Shown here: positions 1-19,629 of the stretch, one piece after another
How positions within the stretch are numbered: position 1 is the first letter of the stretch
Layout of the letters: the number at the start of each line of letters is the position of its first letter
Assembly: GCF_011022235.1 (NCBI RefSeq)
Contig: NZ_JAAIYP010000038.1
Location: 62,001 to 126,000, forward strand
Length of the DNA stretch: 64,000 bases
Direction: 5' to 3'
Source: Magnetospirillum aberrantis SpK
GTDB taxonomy: Bacteria; Pseudomonadota; Alphaproteobacteria; Rhodospirillales; Magnetospirillaceae
Position numbers and translations under genes: made by a program
Notes under the pieces: generated by a model
Database searches by the model: none
Seen by the model: the letters and a program-made list of their open reading frames with translations, nothing else
What the model was told of the DNA's origin: nothing

Positions 1-968
1 TTTCCGGTGTGCGGTATCGGTATGCTGACCGTCGCGGGAATCGTTCGTCGGACTTTGATGTCCAGGTCGCGCGGCTTGTCGGGAATGTTGCGCCACAGAC
101 TGATCATCAGGGAATCATAGGTGTCGATTTCCACCAGTTCCGCTCTGACTCCAACTGCGCGGGCCTCGGTGATCAGATTCTGCACCACCGGAAGAGCGGG
201 CGCGCCCTTCATCGTCATCCAGAACAGCCCGTTTGGAAATGGTGTGGGCTGTTGAAGTGCGTCGCGAAACAGGCGCATTACGCTTTCGTCGCGGCCGCTA
301 TAGCCGGCAATAATGAAGCCAAACCGCCCGGCGGCACTTTGCATGGCGAGGGCAAGTTGCTGGTCCTGCTGCGAGAGGTCGCGGGACAGGTTCTTGACGC
401 TGTCGTATCGAAAATCCCCATGCAGTTTGCAATAGAGGGGAAATTCTTCATTGCTCAACGCCTGAAGGGCCGCAGTCGATCCATCCAGATGGTAGGCCAT
501 CAATGTGCGCCCGCTAACCTCGGCGAACGCCCTTTCAACGACGCTGTCGAAATTCGTCGTGAAGATCGCACGGGTCATGCCGCTTGCCATCAGTGCGCCG
601 AGAATTCGGTTGCCAACAGTCAGGGTGACACGATCTTCTGACAGCTTCTTACGCAAGTAATTCCGCTGGCGCTCTTTGTCCGCGCCGAAAATCTTCTCGA
701 AATACAAACTGTACTCACTGTCGTCCCAGAGGGCCGGAAATCCGCGTGAGTCCATGAAAGCCTGTATGCGTGATCGCACGGCTTCATTCTGCATGTCCTG
801 GCGGGACACATCCTGATTCTCCGCCTTACAATAATATTGGCTTTTCAAATCCCAGATGATGTCGGTGGCCGTAGGAAGGCCCGACATACGCGATGCCCCA
901 GCACCGAGAAACCAAGCGAAAGCTGGTGGACGAGAGGCAAATTGAAGGGCGAAGTCTGCGGCATCCAT
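1..968 (-). CDS. SIR2-like NAD-binding domain protein, 3' end beyond the window
   Basis: The first 322 residues are visible on the minus strand and the frame stays open to base 1. SIR2 hallmarks are clear: FLGAGAS at residues 20-26 (NAD-binding glycine loop), FTTNFDSV at 136-143, KLHGDF at 181-186 (candidate catalytic His183) and FIIAGYSGRD at 218-227. This matches the SIR2-like (SIR2_2) family, whose members in prokaryotes often deplete NAD+ during anti-phage defence; that role is inferred here. The ATG at 968 follows GGAGG by 15 nt. A nearer ATG at 976 is in another frame that stops early. Base composition is less GC-rich than the neighbours, which fits an acquired gene. Any C-terminal sensor domain is out of view. 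Confidence 0.82.
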   Translation of the reverse strand, partial: MDAADFALQFASRPPAFAWFLGAGASRMSGLPTATDIIWDLKSQYYCKAENQDVSRQDMQNEAVRSRIQAFMDSRGFPALWDDSEYSLYFEKIFGADKERQRNYLRKKLSEDRVTLTVGNRILGALMASGMTRAIFTTNFDSVVERAFAEVSGRTLMAYHLDGSTAALQALSNEEFPLYCKLHGDFRYDSVKNLSRDLSQQDQQLALAMQSAAGRFGFIIAGYSGRDESVMRLFRDALQQPTPFPNGLFWMTMKGAPALPVVQNLITEARAVGVRAELVEIDTYDSLMISLWRNIPDKPRDLDIKVRRTIPATVSIPIPHTG

Positions 969-1074
969 GGGAACATATGATTGCCTCCAGACGTAGAAAA
1001 GCCAACACAAAATATACCCAACAGAAGTGCCCGCCAGAAGGCTTCCCCCTGCGTAACCCTACTGTTTTGTCCTC

Positions 1075-2685
1075 CTAAAATTGTCCAGCCACAAACCCCG
1101 CGATCCCCCCCACCGCCTCATCCTCTTGACCGATGAAGCCATGATGCGACCGCCCCTCGCAGGGCGGGGACTGGGGTTCGGCACCACCGGTCAGTTCCAC
1201 GTATGCCTTGCGGGTGGCGCCGATCTTGTCGGTCAGGCGCGGGCCGTCCAGGGCGGGGGAGCGGCTGCATCCGTCGGCGGTGTGGCTGAGGACCAGGGTG
1301 GGGACGGTGATGCGGTCCAGGTCCATGTTCAACAGCGAATGCGGTCCCTGTTTGCTGGTGCGCGTGACCGAGGCGGTCAGCACCAGGCCATCGATCCCGG
1401 CACCCTGGCGGAGGGCGGCATTGGCGGCGGACAAGGTGCCCCGGCTGGTGCCGACCAGCCAGACCGGCAGGGGATGGCGCTCGCGCAGCCAGGCCGCCAC
1501 CTTGGCGACGTCCTCGGCATGGGTGGCGGAGACGCGGAAGTGTTCGGGCATGCCGTCCGCCGAATCCGAGGGTGCGTCCAGGGTGGCGACGACGAAGCCG
1601 CGTTCGGCCAGCAGGGCGCGCGAGCGGGCCAGGAAGTTGCCGGCCTTCTCGGGCGCCGGTACCGGCTCACGCACCTCGATAGCGCCACCGCCGCCGGGGA
1701 ACAGGATCAGGATGGCCTTGGGCGGGGTGGCAGGCAGGGTCAGATAGAAGCTTTCCGTCACCTCGCCCCGTACCGGGATGGTGATGGCCTGTTCCGGCGG
1801 CAGGGCGGACGCGCGCGGCGGCGCGGCGGTGGTCGGGACGGCCTGCGCCAATCCTTCCCGCGCCAGGAAGGCATCTACCTGGGCCGTCCACAATGGTGCG
1901 CCCTTGGTCGAGAACAGCTTGTGGCCGTCTTCGCCGAAGGGCGGCAGCATGATCAATTCGGCCCGGCCGCCGGCCCCGATGAAGGCCGCGTGCAGCCGGC
2001 GGGCCAGGGCGGGGCCGATGTAATGGTCGTTCTCGGCATAGACCCACAGCATGGGCACCCGGGCGGTCTGGCCGAAGCGGGCATAGGTGTCGGCCAGAAT
2101 TTCGGGGCCGCACACCTCGTCGGGGCGGGGCGAACCGCGCCCGCCGGCGAAGCTGATCACCGCCTTCAGGCCCGGCGGCGGATCGGCGGCCAGCGCCACC
2201 GAGGCGAAGCCGCCCGCCGAATGCCCCACCGCGATGACGGTCCCGGCATCCACATAGGGCTTGTCGGCCATCAGGCGGACGGTCTCGCGCAGATCCTCGG
2301 CGGCGGCGCGCCCGGCCGGCTCATAGGCGGGGGTGGAACAGCGTCCGTAATCCTCGGCGTATTCGCCCTCGGACTCGCCATAGCCCCGCCGCATCACCGC
2401 CACCGTCACCCAGCCCCGGCGGGCCAACTCGCGGGCCTTGTCCAACTGGTCGCGCGGGCTTCGGGCGTGGCGGTCGTATTCGTTGCGCGGTGCCCCGTGG
2501 CTGAGGATGGCCAGCGGATGGCGTGCGCCATCGTCGGGCCGCACCACCAGGGCGGACAGCGACAGGGTGCGCGTACCGAACAGGCCGGCGAAGCGGGCGG
2601 GAAGGCGGATGTCCTCCTCGATCAGCCCGCCTGCTTCAGCCGGCAGGGAGACCAGCAGCAGGAGGACGGCGAGAATTCCCCTCAT
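1075..2685 (-). CDS. Secreted protein with two tandem alpha/beta hydrolase domains
   Basis: A 536-residue protein with an N-terminal signal peptide (MRGILAVLLLLVSLPAEA). The first hydrolase half has the nucleophile elbow GHSAGG, an acid in AENDHY and a His in EDGHKLF. The second half, after an Ala/Pro-rich linker near residue 290, has GTSRGT, HTADGC and SHHGF. Both halves therefore keep a plausible Ser-Asp-His triad, resembling dienelactone-hydrolase or peptidase-type serine hydrolases. The substrate cannot be told. The start at 2685 overlaps the stop of the upstream gene (ATGA), so it is the last gene of a four-gene operon; an upstream GTG at 2709 would remove the overlap and is less likely. 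Confidence 0.8.
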   Translation of the reverse strand: MRGILAVLLLLVSLPAEAGGLIEEDIRLPARFAGLFGTRTLSLSALVVRPDDGARHPLAILSHGAPRNEYDRHARSPRDQLDKARELARRGWVTVAVMRRGYGESEGEYAEDYGRCSTPAYEPAGRAAAEDLRETVRLMADKPYVDAGTVIAVGHSAGGFASVALAADPPPGLKAVISFAGGRGSPRPDEVCGPEILADTYARFGQTARVPMLWVYAENDHYIGPALARRLHAAFIGAGGRAELIMLPPFGEDGHKLFSTKGAPLWTAQVDAFLAREGLAQAVPTTAAPPRASALPPEQAITIPVRGEVTESFYLTLPATPPKAILILFPGGGGAIEVREPVPAPEKAGNFLARSRALLAERGFVVATLDAPSDSADGMPEHFRVSATHAEDVAKVAAWLRERHPLPVWLVGTSRGTLSAANAALRQGAGIDGLVLTASVTRTSKQGPHSLLNMDLDRITVPTLVLSHTADGCSRSPALDGPRLTDKIGATRKAYVELTGGAEPQSPPCEGRSHHGFIGQEDEAVGGIAGFVAGQF

Positions 2686-3245
2686 CGCAGGGTGACCTCG
2701 GCATACCATGTCCCCGCCGCCCTGGACTTCCAGTGCAGGTCATAGGCGGCGTTGAACAGCCCTCGGTCGGTGAGTGCGTTGGCGCGGCAGAAGCGCACCT
2801 CGGGATCGACCTCGCGGGCGTCGCTGATGGCCTGCGGGCCGGAGACCCGTTGCGGCTTCAGCCCCATCTGGCGGATGGCGCCCTCGACCGCCTTCAGCGC
2901 CTCGGCTGAGTCGCAAGCCGGCAGACCGGGACCGGCGGAGTTGGGCGGCGGCAGGGCCGCTTTCTCGGCGACGATGCAGCGGAGTCCGGCCGACCATGCC
3001 TGCACCGGCCCCTTGAGCGTGATCTCGCGCCCCACCGAGGCGCTGAAATAGGATTCCACCATCAAATCGTCATCGACACCCGCGACACAGAAGGTTTCGC
3101 GGGCGGCGCGGATGTAATACTGGCCGCGCGCGTATTCCACCGTGCCGGTGACGGTGCCCGGCGTGACGGAGATGATCTTGGGCGCGGTTTGCGCCAGGGC
3201 GGGACTGGCGGCGAACAATAGGGCGGCGATCAGGACGGAACGCAT
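2682..3245 (-). CDS. Putative secreted protein of unknown function
   Basis: A 187-residue protein with a clear signal peptide (MRSVLIAALLFAASPALAQ). The mature part has an N-terminal beta-rich stretch with one Cys (ETFCVAG), then a second region with Cys in LRCIVAE, LPACDSA and VRFCRAN that could form disulphides in the periplasm. I do not recognise the family. It overlaps the downstream hydrolase by four bases and follows the upstream gene by about 9 bases, so the products are probably made together. Confidence 0.7.
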   Translation of the reverse strand: MRSVLIAALLFAASPALAQTAPKIISVTPGTVTGTVEYARGQYYIRAARETFCVAGVDDDLMVESYFSASVGREITLKGPVQAWSAGLRCIVAEKAALPPPNSAGPGLPACDSAEALKAVEGAIRQMGLKPQRVSGPQAISDAREVDPEVRFCRANALTDRGLFNAAYDLHWKSRAAGTWYAEVTLR

Positions 3246-3254
3246 GGGGGCACC

Positions 3255-3866
3255 TCACACTTCTAGGGTGGCGATGACGGGGACGAAGGACTCGTAGGCG
3301 GCGGCAGCGGCGGGCTCGGGGCGGATGCGGTCCTCGGCCTCGGTGGCGGCGGGGATGTCGGCCTGCCAGAAGGGCGCGTAGTCCACCTTGTCGTCGTCCA
3401 CCAGCACCCAGCCCTCGGGGGCGGCGAAGGCCAGCCAGTCGGGATCGGCGCCCGCGCCCTTGGTTTCCACCGCCATGCGCAGTGACAGGAAGCGCCCCGA
3501 ATGGTCCAGGCACACCGCCGTCCACAGGTGCTTGCGGGCGTTGAGGCGGTGCGAGGCCGACAGCATCGCCTCCATCCACACCGTGTCGATCTCGCCCGCG
3601 CCGTCGTCCCACAGATGGCTGCCGTAGGGCAGCGGGTCGAAAGCGGCGACCAACGGCCCCCACACCGCGTTCCAGATGTCGTGCAGCAGGCACCAGTAAT
3701 CGGTCTTGATCTTCAGCAGGGAAAGCCGGGCCAGGTGGAACTGCCGCACCTCGGGCAAGGCCAGATCGGCGGGAATGTGCTCGGCCCGGCCGATGCGCGA
3801 CAACGCGGCGGCATGGGCGGGAACGGCGTGGTAGGTCAGGGATTCGGGCAGGATCAGCTCGGTCAT
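3255..3866 (-). CDS. Hypothetical protein
   Basis: A 203-residue soluble protein starting MTELILPESLTYHA. There is no signal peptide and no membrane segment. It is rich in Trp and acidic residues (DIWNAVWGPL, LWDDGAGEIDTVWMEAM, ADPDWLAFAAPEGWVLVDDDK), with no nucleotide or metal motif I can name. The start at 3866 lies two bases after the stop of the nuclease-like gene, indicating translational coupling; an upstream ATG at 3896 would overlap that gene more. Its position between a PD-(D/E)XK-like protein and a secreted protein gives no firm functional hint. Confidence 0.65.
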   Translation of the reverse strand: MTELILPESLTYHAVPAHAAALSRIGRAEHIPADLALPEVRQFHLARLSLLKIKTDYWCLLHDIWNAVWGPLVAAFDPLPYGSHLWDDGAGEIDTVWMEAMLSASHRLNARKHLWTAVCLDHSGRFLSLRMAVETKGAGADPDWLAFAAPEGWVLVDDDKVDYAPFWQADIPAATEAEDRIRPEPAAAAAYESFVPVIATLEV

Positions 3867-3868
3867 GG

Positions 3869-4702
3869 TCAGTCCTTTTCGGCGGCGTGCTCCCACAGAT
3901 CGGCGCGGAAGCTGTCGAAATCGCCGTGGCCCCGGTGGATGGGGTCACGGGCCAGCCCGGCTTCCCAGCGGCGCAGCAATCCGGCCCACGAGGCGGCCAG
4001 CCACCCGGCCCGCTCCTTGCGCGGCGGGGTGCGGCCCTCGGGGGTTAGATAGACGCACCAGCCCCGCGCGGTGCGGGAACGGGCGACATGGCGACGGAGA
4101 TGATCGGCATAGGCCCGCAACTGGCCGGGCCAGTCGGGGGCGTCGAGCTTGGCTTCAAGAATTAGGAAACAGGGGCCGCCCTCGGGCGCCCGCCATTCCA
4201 GCCACAGATCGGCGCGGCGACTGCCGCCCGCCCGGTCCTTGAGGCCCAGTTCGGTGACCACCACCAGACTGCCGTCGGCGATGCCGGGCGCCTTCCCCTT
4301 GCCGCAAGCCCCCAGCAGTGCGGTAACGAAGGCGGCGGCGCGAGCCTCGGCCAGCGGGGCCGGGGTGAAGTGCGGCGACAGGAAGAAGGCGAGGCGGCGG
4401 GTCAGCAGCGGCTCGGTCAGGCTCTCGCCCCAGGTCAGGCCGCGCCCTTGAGCCAGCCCGTGGCCGGGCCACAGCGGGCCGAAGACACCGGGATCGCCGT
4501 AGCCGGCGGACAGCGCGGGGGAAACCGGAAAGGGCGGCAGCAGAGCGAGGTCGGCCTTCAGCGACGCCGGCGGGGCCAGGGTTGGCGAACGCAGCAGGCT
4601 TGCCGCGTCGGCCCCAGGCAGGGGGAAGTCCCAACCGGGCCGCCAGCCGGCGACCAGGGCCAGGTCGCGCGCATTTGCCGCCTGTCCGTCCTCCCCCGCC
4701 AT
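3869..4702 (-). CDS. PD-(D/E)XK nuclease-superfamily protein
   Basis: A 277-residue protein. The C-terminal half has a PD-(D/E)XK core: SRRADLWLEW supplies the Asp, FLILEAKLDA supplies the E-x-K pair, and QLRAYADHLRRHV forms the following helix with the QxxxY pattern of the PDDEXK_4-type family. The N-terminal half (about 1-130) is Pro/Leu-rich and unrecognised. The family acts on DNA in restriction, repair or phage defence, but no methyltransferase or helicase partner is adjacent. It is the first gene of a four-gene leftward operon, divergent from an XRE regulator, with two palindromes in the shared promoter region. Nuclease activity is an inference from the motif. Confidence 0.7.
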   Translation of the reverse strand: MAGEDGQAANARDLALVAGWRPGWDFPLPGADAASLLRSPTLAPPASLKADLALLPPFPVSPALSAGYGDPGVFGPLWPGHGLAQGRGLTWGESLTEPLLTRRLAFFLSPHFTPAPLAEARAAAFVTALLGACGKGKAPGIADGSLVVVTELGLKDRAGGSRRADLWLEWRAPEGGPCFLILEAKLDAPDWPGQLRAYADHLRRHVARSRTARGWCVYLTPEGRTPPRKERAGWLAASWAGLLRRWEAGLARDPIHRGHGDFDSFRADLWEHAAEKD

Positions 4703-4755
4703 GCCCGTTCTCCGACCCTGTTTCGGCTCAAGCGGGCAATCCGGAGTCTCACTGT

Positions 4756-4809
4756 GAACCCAGTTCAGAAACGAATGCGCGCTGGCCGAGCATTATACGA
4801 ACCCAGTTC
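4756..4809. promoter_or_regulatory. Two copies of the palindrome GAACCCAGTTC, probable XRE operators
   Basis: GAACCCAGTTC occurs exactly at 4756-4766 and 4799-4809, 43 bp start to start, so both lie on the same helical face (about four turns). Each is an inverted repeat GAAC-N3-GTTC. They sit between the divergent nuclease operon and the XRE gene and bracket the -10 box of the leftward promoter. Spacing and symmetry fit binding by a dimeric XRE repressor encoded immediately to the right. Binding itself is inferred. Confidence 0.65.
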
Positions 4810-4818
4810 GATGGTCCA
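4792..4818 (-). promoter_or_regulatory. Promoter of the nuclease-like operon
   Basis: On the minus strand a perfect TATAAT lies at 4797-4792. TGGACC at 4818-4813, 15 bp upstream, is a weak -35 (4 of 6). The right-hand GAACCCAGTTC palindrome fills the spacer, so a bound repressor would block polymerase directly. Transcription would start near 4785 and run to the ATG at 4702. Confidence 0.5.
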
Positions 4819-4846
4819 GCGCGATTCTCTCAACCACACTCAGAGC

Positions 4847-5218
4847 ATGATCGATCCCGTCATCAGCGCCATCCTCAGCCGCCGCATGAAGCAGTTCCGC
4901 AAGCTGCGCAACATGAGCCAGGAAGCCTTGGCCGACGCGGTGGGCCGCAGCGTGGACACCATCTCCAACCTGGAGCGCGGCGCCACGCTGACCCGGCTGG
5001 AAACCATCATCGAGATCGCCCGGGCGCTCGCGGTGGAGCCGTTCGAGCTGATCCGCGACGATGCCAAGGGCCTGCTGGTGGAGGAACTGCCCGACGAGTT
5101 GCGCGAGGTGGTCCACATCACCCGCGAGCAGCCCAGCCCCGTCCGTCAGGCGGTGCTGGAACACGCCCGCGCGACGGTTGGCATGGCGGCGAAGGTCGGG
5201 GTGAGGAAGGGGGAGTGA
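4847..5218 (+). CDS. XRE-family HTH transcriptional regulator
   Basis: A 123-residue regulator. Residues about 10-65 form a Cro/C1-type helix-turn-helix (MKQFRKLRNMSQEALADAVG, then VDTISNLERG as recognition helix). The tail ends DELREVVHITREQPSPVRQAVLEHAR and may dimerise. The ATG at 4847 is preferred. An in-frame ATG at 4811 abuts the right-hand palindrome and would leave almost no leader. The gene is divergent from the nuclease-like operon and is the obvious candidate to bind the two palindromes, in the manner of controller proteins or autorepressors of toxin-like operons. Confidence 0.8.
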   Translation: MIDPVISAILSRRMKQFRKLRNMSQEALADAVGRSVDTISNLERGATLTRLETIIEIARALAVEPFELIRDDAKGLLVEELPDELREVVHITREQPSPVRQAVLEHARATVGMAAKVGVRKGE

Positions 5219-5254
5219 GGCGGCAGTACAGCGCCAGGTGCTGCACCTTACCGC

Positions 5255-5842
5255 CTAATGTTCCGCCGAGTTCTCCGGCTCGCCGTCGATTGGCAGGGCC
5301 ATCACGAACTTTGGGCAACGAATTCCCCACACTGTCCGCAAGTTCGTATCACGGATCAACTCGTCCGAATTGACCTTGAATAGACCGGAAAGATGGTAAA
5401 TTTCCAGGCATGTGAATCGCGTATTCTCCTGCCGGACGCTGAATTTTTCGTAAGCCTTCTCCAGGCCGCTCCTGAACTTCGGCGTAGACTGCTCCTCAAG
5501 CGTGCGCGGTATGTCCCATGCGTCGGCGACAATGCGGGTTGTCATCAGAATGGCGACGCCCAGAAACACCACAGCTACGGCGAACATGCCAATGTAGCCA
5601 GGGGTGTAGGGGGTGAAGATTCTGTCGCGGAAGCGCCGTGGCACCTGAAGCTGCCGGAAGTGTTCTTCCCATCTTTCGATGACAGGAATGTGCTTCCTAG
5701 GAAAAGCGCGATCATCGGTGCAGTTTTCAAGCTCAGATATCCGGTTCTGCGCCAAGCCGCAGAAGAATTCACCAAATTCTGTCTGGTTCATTCTCAACCG
5801 CTCTCGGATGGCACGCAGGCGCTCCGCATAGGTTTGTTCCAT
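5255..5842 (-). CDS. Membrane-anchored helix-turn-helix protein
   Basis: A 195-residue protein with an N-terminal XRE-like HTH (ERLRAIRERLRMNQTEFGEF, then NRISELEN as the likely recognition helix, residues about 8-50). One transmembrane segment follows near residues 83-103 (YIGMFAVAVVFLGVAILMTT), then a soluble C-terminal region of about 85 residues containing FTCLEIYHL and TVWGIRCPKF. The layout puts the DNA-binding domain in the cytoplasm and probably the tail outside, like one-component membrane regulators. Composition is less GC-rich than the backbone. No partner is recognisable; it faces away from the XRE gene and shares an upstream inverted repeat region. Confidence 0.65.
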   Translation of the reverse strand: MEQTYAERLRAIRERLRMNQTEFGEFFCGLAQNRISELENCTDDRAFPRKHIPVIERWEEHFRQLQVPRRFRDRIFTPYTPGYIGMFAVAVVFLGVAILMTTRIVADAWDIPRTLEEQSTPKFRSGLEKAYEKFSVRQENTRFTCLEIYHLSGLFKVNSDELIRDTNLRTVWGIRCPKFVMALPIDGEPENSAEH

Positions 5843-5923
5843 GTTGGCCTCGCAAGATCACTCCTCGCCAAGGGTCGTCATTTGCGTCGGGCGTCGTCAA
5901 GGCCAGAAAGCGCCCAACCCATT

Positions 5924-5953
5924 GATATCGGTGGATTATCGGAAAACGATATC
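5924..5953. promoter_or_regulatory. Inverted repeat upstream of the membrane HTH gene
   Basis: GATATCG at 5924-5930 is mirrored by CGATATC at 5947-5953 with a 16-bp spacer holding TTATCGG. It lies about 80-110 bp upstream of the leftward HTH gene (start 5842), inside the 240-bp stretch 5843-6082 that holds no convincing gene. It may be an autoregulatory operator; this is inference only. Confidence 0.3.
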
Positions 5954-6082
5954 CCCCTGGGGAGGCTCTCATGTGAAAATCAGCATTTTGCACTATGTCG
6001 GCCAAGTGCCGGGAATGCGGGGTGGAGGCCGGCAATCAATGCCTCGGGGGTCTTGGAGCCAAAACAGTTGGTCCCCTTTTCC

Positions 6083-7057
6083 CTACAGCGGGTTCCCATC
6101 CCTGGCGTGGATGCTCAGGATGTCGGAACAGGCCCCGATGTCGACGTACTGCACGCCGTTGATCGGGCCTGCCTCCAACTGGTCCCAGAAGAAACGGTAT
6201 TCCCGCTGGTAGGCGAACAGAAAGTCCTTGGAGATCGCGGTCCTGAGCCGGTGACCCGGCGGGCGTTCATAAGGGTCGAAATATTCGACGTTCGTGTCCA
6301 TCCAATACCAACCAGGAAACACCTTCTTTCCAGCCTCGCCGATGCGCCGGGCGAACTCGTCGATGTCATGCACCATCACGCATGTATCGCCGAAGGCTTG
6401 CAGGAACCGGACATCCCATTCACGGGTGAAGCAGGCCATGTGGTAGCCGGGGCCGGCGACCGAAGTCCTCAGGTTCCCGATGATGGGCGTCTCCCGGCCA
6501 TCCGGGAGGATGACGCGGACATGCTGACCGGCCGAGTAGGCGTGCTTGGCCGTCTCCTCGTCCTGCCGCGCCTCGTCGTTCTCGATGTCCTGATAGGACT
6601 TGGCCGGTGTGAATCTCACCCTGCCGCTCGCCAGCTCAAGCATGTGCTCGCGCTGGCCGAAGCGGTAGAGGACGTTCGGGTGCTGAACCTGCGGCGGCGA
6701 GCCCGGCGGCAGTTCGACCTCGGGGACGATGGGCGGCTCCAGCCCCCGCATGGCGATTTCCAGCCGGGTGATGTAGTCCCGCCTCAGCCAGTACCACGAG
6801 CTTTCGGGCCACCAGATCGGCATGATGTCGCGGCGGGGGCCGACGAACGTCCGCATGTTGCGCACCATGTGGCGATGGCGGGTGACGAGTTCGGCGTCGC
6901 TCACCCGTTCAAGCCAGCGTCGAGGTACGTATTCCAAGTTCCAGAAATCAGGGTCGTAGCGGACCTCATTGTGGTTCATGGAGTTAACGACCTCTGCGGG
7001 CGGCAGCGGCGGCAGCGGATAGCGCTCGATCTTTGGAGGGGCCGGGTACAACGTCAT
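6083..7057 (-). CDS. DUF2971-like protein of unknown function
   Basis: A 324-residue soluble protein. The pattern VLYRFGQREHMLELASGRVRF, then MACFTREWDVRF, then KDFLFAYQREYRFFW resembles the DUF2971 family plan (a K/RF-x-ES-like opening, a CFS/CFT centre and an E-x-E-x-R end). That family is scattered in genomic islands and sometimes linked to abortive infection. The match is by eye and weak. The N-terminal 100 residues (Trp/Arg-rich, WWPESSWYWLRRDY) are extra. The start at 7057 follows GGAGG by 10 nt; an in-frame codon at 7129 lacks this. Its stop is 240 bp from the membrane HTH gene on the same strand. Confidence 0.55.
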   Translation of the reverse strand: MTLYPAPPKIERYPLPPLPPAEVVNSMNHNEVRYDPDFWNLEYVPRRWLERVSDAELVTRHRHMVRNMRTFVGPRRDIMPIWWPESSWYWLRRDYITRLEIAMRGLEPPIVPEVELPPGSPPQVQHPNVLYRFGQREHMLELASGRVRFTPAKSYQDIENDEARQDEETAKHAYSAGQHVRVILPDGRETPIIGNLRTSVAGPGYHMACFTREWDVRFLQAFGDTCVMVHDIDEFARRIGEAGKKVFPGWYWMDTNVEYFDPYERPPGHRLRTAISKDFLFAYQREYRFFWDQLEAGPINGVQYVDIGACSDILSIHARDGNPL

Positions 7058-7170
7058 TTCAGAAAACCCTCCAGGCAATTGTCCAGGGCGCTCGAAAGGG
7101 CCTCCGGTCCCTTCTCCGCCGGCAGGCACGAGGATATACTGCCGGTCGCATTTCTTTGGGGGAATTGGGC

Positions 7171-7521
7171 GTGCTCCGCAAATCCTTGGCTGTTACCGCA
7201 TTGGCCTACACTCTGGCGCCCGCGGCTGCCTCGGCCGCTCCGGTCTATCTGGAATGCATGATGACGCTCGGTTCGGGCCAAAAGGAGACCCAGTGGAACG
7301 TCACCCTGGACGAGGCCGCTGGCTCCGTCGCCTACACCATCCCCGAACTGGGCACTGCCAAGAAGGCCCTGGGCATTTTCACTGCCGACAAGGTGCGGTT
7401 CGACACGATGGAAATCAGCCGCATCGACCTGACCTTTACCCGGACGATCAACCTCCTTGGAGAGGTCAAGCGCGACCAGGGCCAATGCAAAATGGCGCCG
7501 ACGCCGACACGGAAATTCTGA
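7171..7521 (+). CDS. Small secreted protein of unknown function
   Basis: A 116-residue protein starting at GTG 7171, seven bases after GGGGGA. A signal peptide is visible (LRKSLAVTALAYTLAPAAASA), cutting near APVYLE. The mature part has two Cys (ECMM near its start and GQCKMA near its end), which could form one disulphide. Its motif-poor beta-rich sequence is not one I recognise. The stop is one base before the ATG of the next gene, so the two are probably cotranscribed. Confidence 0.6.
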   Translation: MLRKSLAVTALAYTLAPAAASAAPVYLECMMTLGSGQKETQWNVTLDEAAGSVAYTIPELGTAKKALGIFTADKVRFDTMEISRIDLTFTRTINLLGEVKRDQGQCKMAPTPTRKF

Positions 7522-7522
7522 C

Positions 7523-8026
7523 ATGGACGGGAAGCAAGCAACCGGAGCCACTACCAAACCGACGCTGCGCCTGCGGGTCACCATGCCGGAGGTGCGCGGT
7601 CTGTCCCGCGACATCGAGATGCCGGCCAGCCATTCCCTGGCCGGATTGGCCAAGGCCATCATCGGCTCGGTGGGGTGGTTCTTCGACCATGCCTATGGGT
7701 TCTATGATGCGCTGGGCTATCACATTCACGACAGCACCGTGCGTTATGAGTTGTTCGCCGACATGGGTGATAACGGCTTTATGGATGACGGCCCGCCCGC
7801 CAAAAGCGTTAAGCGCACCAAGGTCGGGCAGGTATTCACCGCGCCCGGCGACAAGTGGCAGTTTCTGTTCGATTACGGCGACGATCACCGTTTCATCGTC
7901 GAGGTGCTGAACTTCGGGGAGGTCGAGACCGGCGCCAAATATCCCCGTGTGATCGCCCGCAAGGGCAAGGCCCCGCCGCAATATCCGCCCGAGGATGACG
8001 AGGATTACGACGACGAAGAGGACTGA
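7523..8026 (+). CDS. Plasmid pRiA4b ORF-3-like protein
   Basis: A 167-residue protein of the pRiA4b ORF-3 family. The signature parts are visible: LRVTMPEVRGLSRDIEMPAS, FDHAYGFYDALGYHIHD, and WQFLFDYGDDHRFIVEVLN, followed by YPRVIARKGKAPPQYPPED. The family is common on plasmids and islands and its biochemical role is unknown. The C terminus is strongly acidic (DDEDYDDEED). It lies one base behind the secreted gene and its last 22 bases overlap the convergent MazF-like toxin gene. Confidence 0.75.
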   Translation: MDGKQATGATTKPTLRLRVTMPEVRGLSRDIEMPASHSLAGLAKAIIGSVGWFFDHAYGFYDALGYHIHDSTVRYELFADMGDNGFMDDGPPAKSVKRTKVGQVFTAPGDKWQFLFDYGDDHRFIVEVLNFGEVETGAKYPRVIARKGKAPPQYPPEDDEDYDDEED

Positions 8027-8364
8027 GCAGCCGGACCACCCTGCTCGACATAGGCACAGAGGCGGGTCAAGGCTGCCGCGATGATCCCTTCCGAAGCCCG
8101 CCCGAAGCCCTTGACCACCAAGCTGGCGTTGAGCGTCACCACTCGGTCGGTGCGAATCCAACTGGCGAGGGGCAGGCTCCCCTGAACGAGGTCGGTGGCG
8201 GCCAGCGCGATGCCATGGTCGGTTTGCGGGCGGGAGGTCACCGCCAGGGCGATGAAATCGCCATAGGCATCCGGGCGGGTCAGCACCAGCACCGGCCGTT
8301 TCTTGGCCGCCGATAGATCGGAGAAGGGAAACGGGATCAGAAGAAGGTCGCCGCGCTCAAACAC
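8005..8364 (-). CDS. PemK/MazF-family toxin
   Basis: A 119-residue protein with the MazF/PemK fold sequence: RGDLLLIPFPFSDLSAAKKRPVLVL at the N terminus, FIALAVTSRP in the middle and SWIRTDRVVTLN further on. Family members are ribosome-independent mRNA endoribonucleases inhibited by a partner antitoxin. The ATG at 8364 overlaps the last 8 bases of the upstream small antitoxin-like gene, the usual antitoxin-first order. The last 22 bases are antisense to the pRiA4b-like gene, so the C-terminal Ser run (AQSSSSS) is the complement of that gene's acidic tail. Confidence 0.82.
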   Translation of the reverse strand: MFERGDLLLIPFPFSDLSAAKKRPVLVLTRPDAYGDFIALAVTSRPQTDHGIALAATDLVQGSLPLASWIRTDRVVTLNASLVVKGFGRASEGIIAAALTRLCAYVEQGGPAAQSSSSS

Positions 8365-8551
8365 GATCCCAAGCCTGATCCTCGGGATTATCCCAAACCG
8401 CCTTCAGAGCGGATTCTTGGGCGTTGATCAGGTCGCGGCCCTGATCGCGCTCCTGGCGTTCCGCCAGATAGCCGACGAAATCCAGGACTTCTCGCGCCAA
8501 ATGCTCGGGAAGCTTCTTGCTCTGCTCATAAATAAGGTCGGCGATGGCCAT
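8357..8551 (-). CDS. DUF2281-type antitoxin-like protein
   Basis: A 64-residue protein beginning MAIADLIYEQSKKLPEHLAR and continuing EVLDFVGYLAERQERDQ, the DUF2281 pattern found in antitoxins paired with MazF, PIN or RelE toxins. The start at 8551 has an excellent AAGGAGG four bases upstream; an in-frame codon at 8608 lies across the integrase stop region. The C-terminal tail (ALKAVWDNPEDQAWDRV) is likely to wrap the toxin. It overlaps the MazF gene by 8 bases and sits 40 bp after the integrase gene. Confidence 0.75.
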   Translation of the reverse strand: MAIADLIYEQSKKLPEHLAREVLDFVGYLAERQERDQGRDLINAQESALKAVWDNPEDQAWDRV

Positions 8552-8591
8552 GTGGCCTCCTTCGACAGTCCGGGCCTTGAATCGCACTGTA

Positions 8592-9839
8592 TCACGAGTT
8601 GGCGGCATTGCCCGAGTCTCCGTTGGGGTCCGCCACCAGCTTCGCCACCGCCGCCGCTTTGTGCTCGGGCGCCAGGTGGGCGTACCGCAACGTCATCTGA
8701 TAGTCCGAGTGTCCCAGCAGTTCGCGCACCGTGTTCAGGTCCACGCCTTTCATCACCAGCAGCGAGGCGAAGGTGTGGCGCATGTCGTGCCAGCGGAACT
8801 TGGTGATCTTGGCCGCCTTCAGCACCTCCTCCCACGAACTGCGCACGTTATCGAACGGGCCGCCGTCGCGGCTGGGAAACACCAGGAGGCTGTCGCTGGT
8901 CCGCTGCTTCTGCCAGTTCTCCAGCAGGGCAAGGGCCGCGCTGTTCAACGGGATGTGCCGGGTCTTCTGGCTCTTGGCCTTGAAGCCGTGCACGGTGAGG
9001 ATGGCCCGGTCCAAATGCAGGTCATCCCAGGTCAGGTTGGCGAGTTCGCCGTACCGCATACCGGTATGAAGCGACAGCAGCACCATGGGCTTGAGATGGT
9101 CGGCATAGGCGACCGTCCGCAGGTCCAGCATCAGCGGGTATTCCCGCTCGGCCCGCCAGGCGTTGGCGCGGTCGCGGGCGGCCCGCACCCGTTCTTCGCG
9201 GGCGTCCAGGGCCTCGTAAAGCCGCGTCCGCTCGTCCTCGGTCAGGAAGCGAACGGTGGCACGGTCGTCCACCCGCGTCCGCTTGACCTTCTCGATGGGA
9301 TGGACTTCGATGAAGCCCCATTGCTGGGCCTTGCCGAGCGAGGATTTCAGGTCGTCGAGGTCGCGATTGACCGTGGAGGGCTTGGTCCCGGCCTTCAACC
9401 GGTCGGAGCGCCACCGTTCGACCAGCAGGGGTGTGATCTCGCTCAGCTTCAGCTTGCGGAAATCGGCGAAGCTCTGGTTCAGGCGGCGGAGTGTGCCCTT
9501 GTGGGTGCGGACGTTGGCCTTGGCCCAGCCTGAGTATTCCTCGTCGATGAAACTGCCGAAGGAGTGCTCCTTCGCCTGCCTGGCGGCGCCGTTCGGATCC
9601 TTGCCCTTGAAGGCATCGCCGAGGATGCCCTTGGCCTGCTCGCGCGCATCCTGGGGGGTGATCACGTCGGCCCGCCCAAGGCTGATGCGTTTGCCGCGCG
9701 CGTACTCGACATAATAGGTCATGGCGCCGCTCGGCTGTACCCGCAACAGCAGGCCCTTGAGCCGGGTGTCCCGCACCTCGTAAGGCTTATCGGAGGGTTT
9801 CAGGCTCTTGATCAATGGCGCGCCGAGAACACCCTGCAT
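8592..9839 (-). CDS. Tyrosine-type site-specific integrase
   Basis: A 415-residue integrase. The N-terminal DUF4102-like arm-binding region has DTRLKGLLLRVQPSG and YYVEYARGKRISLGRADVIT. A core-binding SAM-like domain spans about 95-190. The catalytic domain has HTGMRYGEL (Arg), KSQKTRHIPL (Lys), WHDMRHTFAS (His-x-x-Arg), LLGHSDYQM (His) and RYAHL (Tyr nucleophile), so all active-site residues are present. It catalyses insertion and excision of the element at a tRNA site. The ATG at 9839 is followed upstream by repeated GTAAGTG boxes and, 200 bp on, by a tRNA 3' fragment. No excisionase is evident. Confidence 0.93.
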   Translation of the reverse strand: MQGVLGAPLIKSLKPSDKPYEVRDTRLKGLLLRVQPSGAMTYYVEYARGKRISLGRADVITPQDAREQAKGILGDAFKGKDPNGAARQAKEHSFGSFIDEEYSGWAKANVRTHKGTLRRLNQSFADFRKLKLSEITPLLVERWRSDRLKAGTKPSTVNRDLDDLKSSLGKAQQWGFIEVHPIEKVKRTRVDDRATVRFLTEDERTRLYEALDAREERVRAARDRANAWRAEREYPLMLDLRTVAYADHLKPMVLLSLHTGMRYGELANLTWDDLHLDRAILTVHGFKAKSQKTRHIPLNSAALALLENWQKQRTSDSLLVFPSRDGGPFDNVRSSWEEVLKAAKITKFRWHDMRHTFASLLVMKGVDLNTVRELLGHSDYQMTLRYAHLAPEHKAAAVAKLVADPNGDSGNAANS

Positions 9840-9855
9840 GGCGCTTTACCCCTAC

Positions 9856-9903
9856 GTAAGTGCAACGGCCCAGAGTGTGCCGTAAGTGAGCTGTAAGTGC
9901 AAC
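9856..9903. repeat. GTAAGTG direct repeats, probable integrase arm sites
   Basis: GTAAGTGCAAC occurs at 9856-9866 and 9893-9903, with a third GTAAGTG at 9882-9888, all in the same orientation. They lie between the integrase start and the tRNA-derived att site, exactly where arm-type binding sites of phage-like integrases lie. The assignment to integrase binding is inferred from position. Confidence 0.6.
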
Positions 9904-10042
9904 CAGGCCAAATTCAGGCCGAAATGCTGCGGCGCAACACGAACTGGCGCGATCCAATGTCGCACGTTAACATGCTGCAATTTCACGTATTTTCTGGGTC
10001 GGGGTGGTTCGCGTCAATTCGCGCCGAGACACCGGAAAATGG

Positions 10043-10089
10043 CGCTCATAACGGCTTGGTTGGGGGTTCGAGTCCCTCCGGGCCCACCA
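10043..10089 (+). other. Attachment site: 3' half of a CAU-anticodon tRNA gene
   Basis: From 10043 the sequence reads as anticodon loop CTCATAA, variable loop, T arm with GGTTCGAGTCCC, acceptor strand GGGCCCA and CCA, ending at 10089. The bases to the left do not pair: the 5' anticodon stem should be AGCCG but is TGGCG, and no matching acceptor strand (TGGGCCC) or D arm is present. This is the target-derived repeat left by integration into a tRNA-Met or tRNA-Ile2 gene. The intact tRNA should be at the other end of the element, outside this window. The stretch 9904-10250 around it holds no gene I can support. Confidence 0.72.
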
Positions 10090-10250
10090 AATCCTGCAAA
10101 ATCAATGACATAGCCTTGATGAACCCCTGGTGGGACATCAGGGTGGACCATTGGCTTTGCACGCTCCAGCCTATCTGCACGTCTCGCGGCACCGGACCAT
10201 GGGTGGGCCGGGCTCTACTTCAAATTTCCCCAAGCCCGATCCAACCGCTC

Positions 10251-10487
10251 CTACGGCCGCTCGCCAAGTTTCGCGCGGGCGGCGTTCCATTCCTTGAGCA
10301 TGCTTTTGGCACCGCGGGTGTTGTGGTTGCGCACATGTTCGCGATAGCGTTTGTCGTAATAACCGTTGACTCCGATCATGCGCGCGGCGCGGTCCCAGGC
10401 GATGCGCTGGCACTCGAGCTTGACCCGGCACGGTTCGCCACAGTAATCGGCATCCGTCGTGGGAAGACCACAGATCTTGCAATTCAT
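10251..10487 (-). CDS. Small zinc-ribbon-like protein
   Basis: A 78-residue basic protein starting MNCKICGLPTTDADYCGEPC. Cys-x2-Cys and a later Cys-x3-Cys spaced 11 residues away would bind one zinc. The rest is Arg-rich and helical (AWDRAARMIGVNGYYDKRYREH), suggesting nucleic-acid contact. The start at 10487 has GGAG eight bases upstream. I do not recognise the family. It is the first gene on the chromosome side of the att site. Confidence 0.55.
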   Translation of the reverse strand: MNCKICGLPTTDADYCGEPCRVKLECQRIAWDRAARMIGVNGYYDKRYREHVRNHNTRGAKSMLKEWNAARAKLGERP

Positions 10488-10557
10488 TGCACGTCTCCAA
10501 GAGGACGGGCGGCCCAAACGCCTTTGGCGGTCAACTGAGAACACCCTCCCGCCCATA

Positions 10558-11163
10558 TCACCAACGGGTGGGCCGGGTCCAGACGATCAGGGCGACATAG
10601 GCCCAAGCCCCATAGACCCCGCCGGCCAAGGGGGCGGTGATCTCGGGATTGGCGGCGATGGTGGCGGCGCGGAACGTCAGGTAGCCAGCGATGAACAGGC
10701 TGAGGCCGCCCCCCACCCAACGGTGGAAAGGGCCGATATGGGACCGCAACAATTCCCAGGCCAGACCAAACGCCACCATGGCGATGCTCGCCGTATTGCC
10801 GGCGATGCGCAGATGAACCGGGGGCAGGTCGAAGCAGAAGGCGTTGAAGCCCAGGCTGGCAAGCATCAGCGCCCACCAATGGACGCCAAGCCCGTCCTTT
10901 TCCTGAAACCGCCGCAATCCCATCCGCACCGCCAGGAAGCCCCCAAGGATGCACGGCGCACCGGCCGCGCCGGTCAGCGGAAACGGCAAATCCTGGCGGA
11001 AGCCGATCACAAGTACCCCCACGGCAACCAGCATGTGGCCGGCGATCCAATGACCGACGCCGGTGGCCCGGTGGCCACCGACCCAATGCAGGCCGAGCCC
11101 GCCCGACAGCAACAGGACGGACAGCGGCACCATCATGGTGATGATCTGCTGATCGACGGACAT
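10558..11163 (-). CDS. Multi-pass membrane protein of unknown function
   Basis: A 201-residue integral membrane protein with about seven hydrophobic segments, for example IITMMVPLSVLLLSGGLGLH, MLVAVGVLVIGF, WALMLASLGFNAFCF and GPFHRWVGGGLSLFIAGYLT. The layout resembles the membrane-sensor halves of some diguanylate cyclases and kinases, but no output domain follows. The ATG at 11163 is chosen because an upstream in-frame codon at 11208 adds an unlikely charged N-terminal tail. No function assigned. Confidence 0.6.
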   Translation of the reverse strand: MSVDQQIITMMVPLSVLLLSGGLGLHWVGGHRATGVGHWIAGHMLVAVGVLVIGFRQDLPFPLTGAAGAPCILGGFLAVRMGLRRFQEKDGLGVHWWALMLASLGFNAFCFDLPPVHLRIAGNTASIAMVAFGLAWELLRSHIGPFHRWVGGGLSLFIAGYLTFRAATIAANPEITAPLAGGVYGAWAYVALIVWTRPTRW

Positions 11164-11354
11164 GGGACGTTTCGTGCGAAAGGGGCGGGAAGTGGGGCAC
11201 CATGCCACAGCGCCCTTTCAAAGAAAATCGGGTTATCGGTCCATATGGCTTTGGCCGTTGAAACGAAGACGCCCCCGGCTGCATCGTACGGGGTGTTGCC
11301 ACGGCCGGGCTCTGCTATGGTGGCGCCCTTCGCCACCCGACACCAAGGACCGTC

Positions 11355-11801
11355 ATGGCCGACAGCCCTTCCCTTTCCTATAGCGACGAATCGTTGCGGC
11401 GCATCCTGGCCGAAACCCGCACCATCGCCATGGTTGGCGCCAGCACCAACCCGGACCGTCCCAGCCACACCGTCATGGCATACATGCAAGACAAGGGCTA
11501 TCGGGTCATTCCGGTCAATCCCGCCGCCGCCGGCCAAACCCTGTTGGGCGAGGTGGTTCGCGCCTCGCTGGCTGAAATCGACGTCGCCGTGGACATGGTA
11601 GACATTTTCCGCCGTTCGGATCAGGTGGGACCGGTGGTGGACGAGGCCATCGCCATCGGCGCCAAGGTGGTGTGGATGCAACTGGACGTGCGCGACGACC
11701 GGGCGGCGGCGCGGGCCGAGGCCGCCGGCCTTGCCGTGGTCATGGACCGCTGCCCCAAGATCGAATACGCCCGCCTGGGTTGCCACCGTGTTGCACCCTA
11801 G
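11355..11801 (+). CDS. CoA-binding (YccU-like) protein
   Basis: A 148-residue Rossmann-fold protein of the CoA-binding domain family. The nucleotide loop is [18 protein letters not shown] near residue 24, followed by the strand [29 protein letters not shown] and the end [15 protein letters not shown]. The family is single-domain and its physiological role is poorly known. The stop at 11801 overlaps the GTG start of the zincin-like gene at 11788, so the two form an operon. Confidence 0.82.
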
Positions 11802-12609
11802 GGGGTTGCTGGCGGTGCTGGCGGTGCTGTCCGTCGTGTCCGGGACAGCGTTCGCGGATGGGCCATCGTGCCTTGAGCGGTCATGGGACGAACCGGGCGA
11901 CGCGCGCGTGCTGGACGAGCCGCTGTCGCTGGGCGACCGCGCGGCGTTGCTGTCGTGGGGAGCCGAAGTCGGCAAGCATTCGTGGAACCATTACCAATGC
12001 GCCCGCCTGAGTGAGTTGCCCGGCTCGGCCCTGTGCCTGTTCTCCCATGGCGGCATGATGAACCAAGTGTTCGAACGGATGGTCGGCGACGTCGAGATTC
12101 CCCGCTCACGCCACCGCCAGGGCAACCGTCTTCTCGGCGTCGATCTGCGCGTGGAACAGATCGAACAGGTGGCTTACGACGAGTTGCCGCCCTGTCTGGT
12201 CGCCGAACGGCATTTCCGGGCAACCCCCCTGGTCGAGCTCAAACAGGCGGGGGTCGACAACGTCGTCGCCTCGGCCTGGGGAAACCTAGCGACGATCGAG
12301 CATGAATTGCTGCACGCCCAATATTTCTCGGACCCGCGTTACAAAACGGTGGTCCACAGCTTTTGGCGGGAACGCCTGAGCGAGGAACAGCGCGGGCAGG
12401 TGCGCCGGGAACTTGGCGCCCAATACGACCCCGCCAACGAAGACCTCATGGTCAACGAGTTCCAGGCCTATGTGCTGCAATCGACGCCGCGCGGATGGCT
12501 TTTGGCCGAGCGCGAACGCTGGCGGGCGCTGCTCCTGTCGGACCTGGAACAGGCCGGAACCGCCCCGCTGGCGCTGTCCAGCCGACTGACTGCGTCAGAA
12601 CCGCGCTGA
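11788..12609 (+). CDS. Exported zincin-like protein with an HExxH motif
   Basis: A 273-residue protein starting at GTG 11788, inside the end of the CoA-binding gene. A signal peptide ([17 protein letters not shown]) precedes DGPSC. HELLH at residues 172-176, in the helix context [17 protein letters not shown], is a zinc-metallopeptidase motif, and [12 protein letters not shown] downstream could supply the third ligand (Glu). Other parts ([31 protein letters not shown]) are not familiar. Peptidase activity is inferred from the motif alone. It would act in the periplasm. Confidence 0.65.
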
Positions 12610-12622
12610 TACCCTGTGGCGG

Positions 12623-13207
12623 TCAGTTCCCGCCGCTCTCGCGCGCGATGCGGCTGGGCAACGGCGCCAATTGTTCCTTGTATTTGGAATCGGGCCGCTG
12701 GGCATAGGATTTGGAGGTCGGCGTCATCAGCGCCTCGAAGCTGATGGCGCAGATGCGCATGCCGGGCCGCAAAGCCAACGGCAGACGGCCGCAATTGAAG
12801 AATTCAAGGGTGATGCGGCCATTCCAGCCGGGATCGATGGTGTGGGCGGTGGCATGCACCATCAAACCCAGCCGCGCCAGACTGGAACGCCCGTCAAGCC
12901 GGCCGACGATGTCCGTCGGCAATGTGATCTTCTGAACGGTGATCCCCAGGGCGAAGTCACCGGGATGCAGGTAGAAAGGACTGTCGTCGTCGATTTCGAT
13001 ATGGCTCATCAGCGCTTCAAGATCGGCGCCGCCGCCTTGGGGAGACAAGTCCACGAACGAAGCCTTGCCGGGAGTGAACACCCGGAACTGGCGCCCCAGT
13101 TCAAGATCGACGGACATGGCGCCGATGTGGCTCTCGGTGGGGACGGGATCGATGTTGATCTTTCCCTCCGCCATATAGCGGCGGATGTCGACATCAGAGA
13201 GCTTCAT
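12623..13207 (-). CDS. dcd: dCTP deaminase
   Basis: A 194-residue protein matching Dcd over its length. It starts MKLSDVDIRRYMAEGKINI, carries the active-site segment LDGRSSLARLGLMVHATAHT, and IDPGWNGRITLEFFNCG contains the catalytic Glu. It deaminates dCTP to dUTP in thymidylate synthesis, acting in the cytoplasm as a trimer. The ATG at 13207 is preferred over an in-frame codon at 13231 because KLSD is the usual N terminus. It stands alone, convergent with the zincin-like gene. Confidence 0.93.
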   Translation of the reverse strand: MKLSDVDIRRYMAEGKINIDPVPTESHIGAMSVDLELGRQFRVFTPGKASFVDLSPQGGGADLEALMSHIEIDDDSPFYLHPGDFALGITVQKITLPTDIVGRLDGRSSLARLGLMVHATAHTIDPGWNGRITLEFFNCGRLPLALRPGMRICAISFEALMTPTSKSYAQRPDSKYKEQLAPLPSRIARESGGN

Positions 13208-13308
13208 CGCGTCATTCTCCACGGGCGACACGGAACGCGCGCCCCAGTACCGGATAAACTGCGCAACCTATACTCGGAACCGACTGGACGGACAAGGAAA
13301 GCCGTCAC

Positions 13309-13334
13309 GCGGAACTGCGGCGGAGCCGTTCCGC
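13309..13334. repeat. Inverted repeat in the dcd upstream gap
   Basis: GCGGAAC at 13309-13315 pairs with GTTCCGC at 13328-13334 around a 12-base loop. No T run follows on either strand. It lies in the 301-bp gene-free stretch 13208-13508 between dcd and the LuxR regulator; nothing else is recognisable there. It could be a weak terminator or a regulatory hairpin. Confidence 0.3.
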
Positions 13335-13508
13335 CCCACCCGACCACCTCTCGACTGTTCGCACGCTAAGCAACCAAGCCCTGAAACGGATGCCCAGGAA
13401 TCGGGCAACCCGTCGCCGGATCAGCCGTGCCATGGACTAGCGCCCCTCTCCCACAGCTTTTCGACAGGCTTTTCCACAGATCTTGGGGATTACCCCGGAA
13501 CACCACGC

Positions 13509-14150
13509 TCAGTTCAGAATCTCGACCCTGCGCACATTGCCGTTGCCGGTCAGGACATAACGGGCGGCTTCCGTCCGCGTATGGACGCCCAGCTTGCGGA
13601 AAATCGCCTTGACGTGCGACTTCACCGTCACCTCCTCGACCTGCAAGGCGCGGGCGATATGCTTGTTGGACGCGCCCGTGGCGACCAGCCCCAAAATCTC
13701 GGTCTGCCGGGGTGACAGCATGGGAACGGAAACGGCAAGTCCCGGCAGCGGTCGGCTGCCGCCGTCGATGGTGATGGACGGCACGAACCGTTCCCCCCGC
13801 ATCATCAGTTGAATGGCGCAGACGATGGCCGACGCCGACATGGTTCGCGGCATGTAGCCGTCGTAACCGAGGTTGAGGCACCTCATGGCCTCGTCGGCAT
13901 TGCCGGGTGCCGAATAAAGCGCCACCCGCGGATGGTAGTGCAAGCGTTGACGCAACGCCTGCAAGCCGTGAGCCGCAGCCCCCATCTCGTAGTCAAGCAG
14001 CACCAGCGCCTCACCCCCGATGTCGCCGGCGGCTTCCACCACGTCGTCGATCTTGTCCAAGGCCAACGTGTTGACCTTGAAACTGGCTTGGATACTCGAA
14101 ACGAGATTGTCCTTCGCCAGACGGTTTTCCCCGGCCACCACGATGGTCAT
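13509..14150 (-). CDS. LuxR-family response regulator with a degenerate receiver
   Basis: A 213-residue regulator. The N-terminal receiver-like domain (1-120) keeps LLDYEMG at the phosphoacceptor position. The acidic pair normally in the first strand is missing (TIVVAGENRL), and the conserved Lys is Arg (YMPRTMS). The LuxR/GerE HTH at the C terminus is canonical: MLSPRQTEILGLVATGASNK and TVKSHVKAIFRKLGVHTRTE. It probably works without normal phosphorylation, or with altered control. A good ribosome site (AAGGGGG) precedes the ATG at 14150. It is transcribed alone, separated from the GGDEF-EAL gene by 227 bp on the same strand. Confidence 0.82.
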   Translation of the reverse strand: MTIVVAGENRLAKDNLVSSIQASFKVNTLALDKIDDVVEAAGDIGGEALVLLDYEMGAAAHGLQALRQRLHYHPRVALYSAPGNADEAMRCLNLGYDGYMPRTMSASAIVCAIQLMMRGERFVPSITIDGGSRPLPGLAVSVPMLSPRQTEILGLVATGASNKHIARALQVEEVTVKSHVKAIFRKLGVHTRTEAARYVLTGNGNVRRVEILN

Positions 14151-14333
14151 AGCGCCCCCTTCTGTCGCATGCCCAAACAGTATGACCGAAGCCTAACATT
14201 CGAAGCCCCCCCATCATATTATCCGCATGGACCACATGCTTTGGGCGGAAACTGTCTTGCGCCATGAAATATTGTGTTCCACACCAGACATTCCTACTGC
14301 GGGTGGATTTCTGTGCCTTGCCGCGTCTCGAGA

Positions 14334-14363
14334 CCCACCCTCCCCCAAAAGGGGGAGGGTGGG
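14334..14363. repeat. Perfect 13-bp inverted repeat with AAAA loop
   Basis: CCCACCCTCCCCC (14334-14346), AAAA, GGGGGAGGGTGGG (14351-14363). It lies just past the stop of the GGDEF-EAL gene (14378), on whose transcript it would fold into a very stable hairpin. No T run follows, so it is either a factor-independent terminator of unusual type or a REP-like intergenic palindrome. Confidence 0.6.
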
Positions 14364-14377
14364 GAAAGAAGCACGTT

Positions 14378-16654: not shown

Positions 16655-16691
16655 GGCCTACACAAGACATCACTAAAAGTGGGGACAACTT

Positions 16692-16703
16692 ATACCATGG
16701 TAT
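16692..16703. promoter_or_regulatory. 12-bp palindrome ATACCATGGTAT upstream of the PhnD-like gene
   Basis: A perfect palindrome in the 197-bp divergent region between the GGDEF-EAL gene and the PhnD-like gene. A near copy, TATCCCATGGTATA, sits at 46821-46834 upstream of the Irr-like gene, with 12 of 14 positions the same as TATACCATGGTATG here. It overlaps a possible -10 (TATGAT, 16701-16706). It may be an operator; the protein is unknown. Confidence 0.35.
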
Positions 16704-16851
16704 GATGCGCACCGATAGCGGAACAGTCATGCCGCCGCCTCGCGGCACCCCCGAGCAAACACCAACCCTGACACTGGTGGCAAGGCTTGAACCCCCTGGG
16801 CAACGGGCTACACTTCCAGTGGGAGAGCCGGATGGGGAAGGAGAACCCGCT

Positions 16852-19509: not shown

Positions 19510-19629
19510 CCGCCCTGCCTCCGTCCCCTGAGGGAGTCTGTCACCATAGCACACATGGTAACGCACAAACGTAAACACGCTTCCCTGTCAAAATGAACAG
19601 GGAACGAACGTTTCACCGCCTTCAGGCAA

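Follow-up and report, generated by a model that had tools for sequence, protein, structure and literature searches.

A probable SPARSA-type immune operon adjoining a Druantia-like operon on a tRNA-integrated element of Magnetospirillum aberrantis SpK

The stretch of DNA analysed here (hereafter, the window) comprises 64,000 nucleotides of Magnetospirillum aberrantis SpK and corresponds to G000:C38:62001-126000, so that window base p is base 62000 + p of contig C38. Its left edge cuts through a gene on the minus strand, the N-terminal part of which occupies window positions 1..968, with 322 open codons up to the edge. After fetching the DNA left of the window and translating it in full, we found that the complete gene (G000:C38:61205-62968, minus strand) reaches 795 bases beyond the left edge and encodes a protein of 587 aa, its frame being free of internal stops. 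A preliminary description of the window had recognised a SIR2-like protein at this place by the hallmarks GAGAS, TTNFD and KLHGD, all of which are present in the in-window translation; it had also allowed for a stop within a few codons of the edge, and the 587-aa open frame has none there. Taking the ATG at window position 968 as the start agrees with the homologue GsSir2 of Geobacter sulfurreducens, residue 11 of our query aligning with residue 14 of GsSir2. On the strand of this gene no promoter site was called, and both the promoter and the terminator scans performed at chance level.

The preliminary description had expected the missing C terminus to decide the class of the protein, and it was the leftward extension that did so. 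Against PDB sequences, the best match was 8in8_B (E 7.7e-143, residues 11-582), and the matches with E up to 0.001 were three sequences of near-equal length, each named 'Sir2 superfamily protein'. PDB entry 8IN8 is a SIR2-APAZ/Ago-guide RNA-DNA complex from Geobacter sulfurreducens, according to the sections of PMC10474274 used here. The aligned range in GsSir2 (residues 14-580) covers most of its APAZ domain, since the domain limits given in the consulted part of PMC10781750 are 1-310 for Sir2 and 332-583 for APAZ. Because of this match and these limits, we identify the C terminus beyond the window as APAZ, located within the same protein as the SIR2 domain. PADLOC agrees, its top model being Aga_SIR2-PNTD1-PNTD2 (E 1.1e-192, residues 10-584). 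Pfam recognised SIR2_2 alone (5.1e-13), and NCBIfam returned zero matches with E up to 0.01. A housekeeping sirtuin deacetylase, the match that the preliminary description had named as speaking against a defence role, would have the SIR2 motifs in common with our protein and nothing else: Pfam and NCBIfam (E up to 0.01) offered no classic sirtuin model, the PDB (E up to 0.001) no sirtuin, and the gene is absent from 12/12 other genomes of the genus (E up to 1e-30; several of these are drafts). With the patchy distribution and the Argonaute partner described below also disfavouring it, we give a housekeeping function practically no credence.

The partner is a short Argonaute (pAgo) gene situated left of the window (C38:59799-61208, minus strand, 469 aa), the start of which overlaps the stop of the SIR2-APAZ gene by 4 bases (ATGA). 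Its product, composed of MID and PIWI only, was assigned by PADLOC to pAgo_I (E 3.1e-190), and in the PDB it matched 8in8_C, the Ago chain of the same Geobacter complex (E 5.9e-175, residues 6-469), while the next solved short pAgos were much weaker (1.8e-24 and less). Both frames of the pair are full length and without internal stops. Thus, among the NLR, STAND, HerA and pAgo types that the preliminary description had considered, the answer is pAgo. The Pfam Piwi model (PF02171) had zero matches in 190 genomes with E up to 1e-10; this result is uninformative on the frequency of pAgo, because the model misses the pAgo of this very locus too. A census based on PF02171 would overlook the pAgo of this pair.

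The two genes also travel together elsewhere. A pAgo match lies directly downstream of the SIR2-APAZ gene, on the same strand, in 11/11 relative loci examined, namely 4/4 loci of the genome-contig scan, three of the four non-self matches from the order and class samples, and four plasmid records covered to 80% or more. Left out of this count were four other plasmid records, four phage records and one genome, G692, which was excluded because its stretch reads N; the long open frame of G692, an apparent giant SIR2 fusion, was rejected as an artefact of that same stretch. At two of the 11 loci the pAgo match is partial: in G298 the contig stops within the gene, and in Sphingomonas sanguinis homology ends at residue 316. 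At two loci (L011, at a contig edge, and L034), in a Methylophaga MAG and again in G298, the APAZ half alone of the SIR2-APAZ protein was matched. Six of the seven SIR2-APAZ/pAgo junctions checked are ATGA overlaps, and the remaining one reads GTGATG. These loci bear on whether the protein could belong to a different SIR2 defence class (DSR, ThsA, or a STAND, NLR or HerA fusion) and merely neighbour an unrelated gene. Such a reading may draw on SIR2_2 being all that Pfam recognises and on weaker PADLOC hits of the N-terminal part to another SIR2 family (PDC-S65, E 2e-20). However, alignment places the C terminus on the APAZ part of GsSir2, and pAgo is the direct neighbour at every locus examined, so that we hold another class to be highly improbable.

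We next consider the residues on which activity would depend. Using an ungapped offset of three taken from the PDB alignment, 21/24 GsSir2 positions compared were identical, including N142, H186, H163, F143, D144, Y89 and F93, as well as R190, Y226, S227, R229 and D230. The N-terminal SIR2 domain therefore contains the Asn-His dyad of an NADase (N139/H183 here, N142/H186 in Geobacter), which is retained in 5/5 relatives aligned. GsSir2 and our protein are unlike at three NAD-contact positions, where L259 takes the place of E262, Y284 that of F287 and T35 that of S38. For the Geobacter protein, the consulted part of PMC10781750 reports that N142A, H186A, Y226A, D144A, F143A and F287A mutants lack activity, and that E262A and S38A mutants are still active. 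One could argue from the changes at E262, F287 and S38 that the pair is a relic, its frames intact and its NADase inactive through altered contact residues. Decay does occur in the family, as follows from the pAgo of Sphingomonas sanguinis with its homology ending early. Nevertheless, neither of our frames is shortened or interrupted by a stop, the catalytic dyad is preserved, and the three contact positions vary among the five relatives as well (at the F287 position, F in four and Y in one), which makes a relic very unlikely in our opinion. In the Sphingomonas sanguinis sequence itself (L008 10772-11863), homology is lost past residue 316, which suggests that the SPARSA copy of this closest relative is probably broken.

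In the guide pocket of pAgo, 6/7 positions are identical to those of Geobacter (D164, H166, K170, Q181, R190 and N195), and the MID pocket for a 5'-phosphorylated guide is retained with H166, K170 and Q181. The consulted part of PMC10781750 names these last three as the guide 5'-phosphate residues (it prints K70, which we took as K170) and has N184 contacting the first guide base. The seventh position, N184 of Geobacter, is R184 here; since R is common to 4/5 relatives aligned and N is found in Geobacter, the preference for the 5' base of the guide may differ from that of Geobacter, where the bias is towards 5'-AU. As to the PIWI domain, a profile comparison by hhalign with Thermus TtAgo, a modest match (probability 79.8%, E 1.5e-5), was used to locate the slicer tetrad, which we take to be D478, E512, D546 and D660, the letters at those numbers having been confirmed in the TtAgo sequence. 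D478, D546 and D660 correspond to S228, N307 and S446, and E512 falls in an alignment gap; hence, the tetrad is degenerate, with three of the four positions lost and the fourth in a gap. Judging by the residues now occupying these positions, the PIWI of this pAgo is most likely not a nuclease. In the most distant relative aligned (L060), a D still stands at the first slicer position.

Overall, all five structural features of SPARSA that we tested (5/5) are present: the SIR2 domain with its dyad, the APAZ C terminus, the adjoining short pAgo, the guide pocket and the degenerate tetrad. On the strength of this sequence evidence, the pair almost certainly constitutes a SPARSA-type immune operon, predicted to act against invaders through guide-triggered NAD depletion. 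SPARSA itself is already known, with solved structures and biochemistry, and the pair is a further example of it. The founding papers of both SPARSA and SPARTA reportedly date to 2022. The suggestion in the preliminary description that this SIR2 protein belongs to NAD-depleting defence is thus borne out by the APAZ C terminus and the short Argonaute neighbour, NAD depletion being expected here by analogy.

By the same analogy with the Geobacter homologue, we would expect this locus to sense target DNA through a guide RNA, to hydrolyse NAD+ and to provide abortive defence. The short Argonaute would bind a small RNA guide, which would pair with complementary invading DNA from a plasmid or phage. 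Pairing would then free or remodel the N-terminal SIR2 domain of the SIR2-APAZ partner, in which APAZ would substitute for the absent N and PAZ lobes of Argonaute; the SIR2 domain would hydrolyse NAD+, and the invaded cell would arrest or die, blocking the spread of the invader. The consulted parts of PMC10781750 and PMC10474274 disagree on the need for an opening of the SIR2 pocket before NAD+ can enter.

The closest characterised system is the Geobacter sulfurreducens SPARSA (GsSir2/pAgo; PDB 8in8, 8jkz and 8jl0), which has the same two genes in the same domain order, protein lengths differing by a few residues and homology that is near end-to-end. The Asn-His dyad and the 5'-phosphate residues are shared, whereas the positions of Gs E262, F287, S38 and pAgo N184 are unlike ours. 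The Geobacter system was compared by its proteins rather than its genomic setting, while the pair described here sits on a tRNA-integrated element beside a Druantia-like operon. Directly adjacent SIR2-APAZ/pAgo pairs also occur in Sphingomonas sanguinis, on the Bradyrhizobium plasmid pS11L-1, in a gammaproteobacterial MAG and in a Hydrogenedentota MAG, with 49-63% identity to our SIR2-APAZ protein and 66-70% to our pAgo. Unlike here, the neighbourhoods in Sphingomonas and the two MAGs had no match to the Druantia proteins of this element in the stretches compared, one of the MAG contigs containing little besides the pair, and the annotation of pS11L-1 names no Druantia neighbour. SPARTA (TIR-APAZ/pAgo) likewise combines a short pAgo with an APAZ partner bearing a NADase domain, as described in the consulted part of PMC10781750. 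Its effector is TIR, while ours is SIR2, and our pAgo matches the SPARSA chain (5.9e-175) much more strongly than it does the SPARTA group, which includes 8i87 (1.3e-19); we therefore rejected SPARTA as the identity of the pair.

Relatives of the SIR2-APAZ gene are few. With our own genome counted, matches were found in 3/317 genomes of the order sample and in 3/385 of the class sample; the nearest relative found, from Sphingomonas, shows 63% identity. A scan of viral contigs with the SIR2-APAZ protein gave zero matches. The patchy distribution fits horizontal spread, which the consulted part of PMC6299218 reports for pAgos generally.

The pair lies inside a 31-kb element, both ends of which are marked by a perfect 48-bp direct repeat of a tRNA 3' end. 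The attL-like copy (C38:40788-40835, left of the window) covers the 3'-terminal part of a tRNA gene with a CAT anticodon (C38:40759-40834, left of the window). The attR-like copy stands on the plus strand at window positions 10043..10090 and marks the right end of the element, the repeat starts being 31,255 bp apart. A tyrosine integrase gene (window 8592..9839, minus strand, 415 aa; Pfam Phage_integrase 5.4e-32 and Arm-DNA-bind_3 1.1e-11) sits 203 bp inside the right copy and 7.6 kb from the SIR2-APAZ gene. The terminal repeats of a tRNA 3' end and an integrase beside one of them identify a tRNA-integrated element; the nearby integrase, the tRNA-derived att site and the island location proposed in the preliminary description have all held up. 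A 26-base core of the repeat, searched in the whole genome with up to two mismatches, occurs at three sites, twice exactly on C38 and once with two mismatches on C34, and even with up to three mismatches it occurred 0 times in 100 shuffles of the window. An Rfam gathering scan of window positions 1-20000 had zero matches and ARAGORN found zero tRNAs within the window, since the right att copy comprises no more than a fragment of a tRNA.

As a model of the empty site, we fused the tRNA side with the sequence that follows attR on its right and compared the product with ten congeners. The model aligns unbroken over 442 bp (87%) in congener G005 and over 191 bp (94%) in G009, in both cases 106 bp past the tRNA, and in G004 the agreement reaches 49 bp past it; in the remaining 7/10, agreement extends no more than a few bases beyond the tRNA, if at all. 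The site without the element is thus seen in G005, G009 and G004, although in G005 a different integrase gene (Phage_integrase domain, 9.2e-11) begins directly after the tRNA, and the site is therefore better described as an integration hotspot than as a cleanly unoccupied one. In G011 we noticed a second, partial copy of the tRNA, 16 kb downstream of the first (L059; G011:C44:16263-16598 and 32488-32536). Together with G005 (L058; G005:C8), G011 suggests that this tRNA gene serves as a hotspot of integration within the genus.

The pair is not the only defence-related cargo. Adjoining it, left of the window, PADLOC detected a Druantia type I-like operon (L002 3723-15774, i.e., C38:47723-59774) with the gene order DruA1, 959-aa protein, DruD1, 380-aa protein and DruE1, the DruE gene being convergent with the pAgo gene. 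The E values were 5.5e-197 for DruA1, 6.1e-117 for DruD1 and printed as 0 for DruE1; neither the 959-aa protein, which takes the DruB/DruC position, nor the 380-aa protein had a Pfam or PADLOC match. The latter carries a pair of strongly hydrophobic segments close to the C terminus and was found in 1/385 genomes, our own. In two other genomes the arrangement DruA, 959-aa protein, DruD, DruE recurs, but the 380-aa protein has no match there; DruE runs past the contig end in one of the two, and a third contig (G661) ends within the 959-aa gene.

The left part of the element also encodes an ArdC-type anti-restriction protein (L002 2512-3393; ArdcN and zincin-like peptidase) and a second, short integrase-like protein (L007 8843-9451; 202 aa, Phage_integrase 1.8e-17). 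Next to the integrase lies a PemK/MazF-like toxin gene (window 8005-8364, Pfam 4e-9), overlapped by a small upstream ORF (8357-8608) that could be its antitoxin. Window positions 1075-4702, also inside the element, contain an alpha/beta hydrolase gene alongside three genes that matched nothing in Pfam, and this region had no match longer than 98 bp in the 12 congeners.

Such a cargo invites the speculation that the 31-kb element functions as a device dedicated to competition, in which a suicidal, guide-directed SPARSA and a Druantia-like operon with the 380-aa gene would together exclude rival plasmids, phages and integrative elements from the cell and from the tRNA site, perhaps with SPARSA sensing nucleic-acid fragments provided by the Druantia step. 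We consider this idea unlikely to hold as stated. A narrow literature search retrieved no report of an Argonaute and Druantia together on a tyrosine-recombinase integrative element.

Our results settle an annotation truncated at the window edge and add an intact SPARSA pair to a family with sparse relatives in the order and class samples. The presence of R184 in the pocket for the guide 5' base predicts a possible difference in guide preference from Geobacter. What remains beyond the known biology of SPARSA is its joint carriage with Druantia: the element is a concrete case of the two systems being carried on one mobile element, and this would permit a direct test of whether SPARSA and Druantia cooperate.
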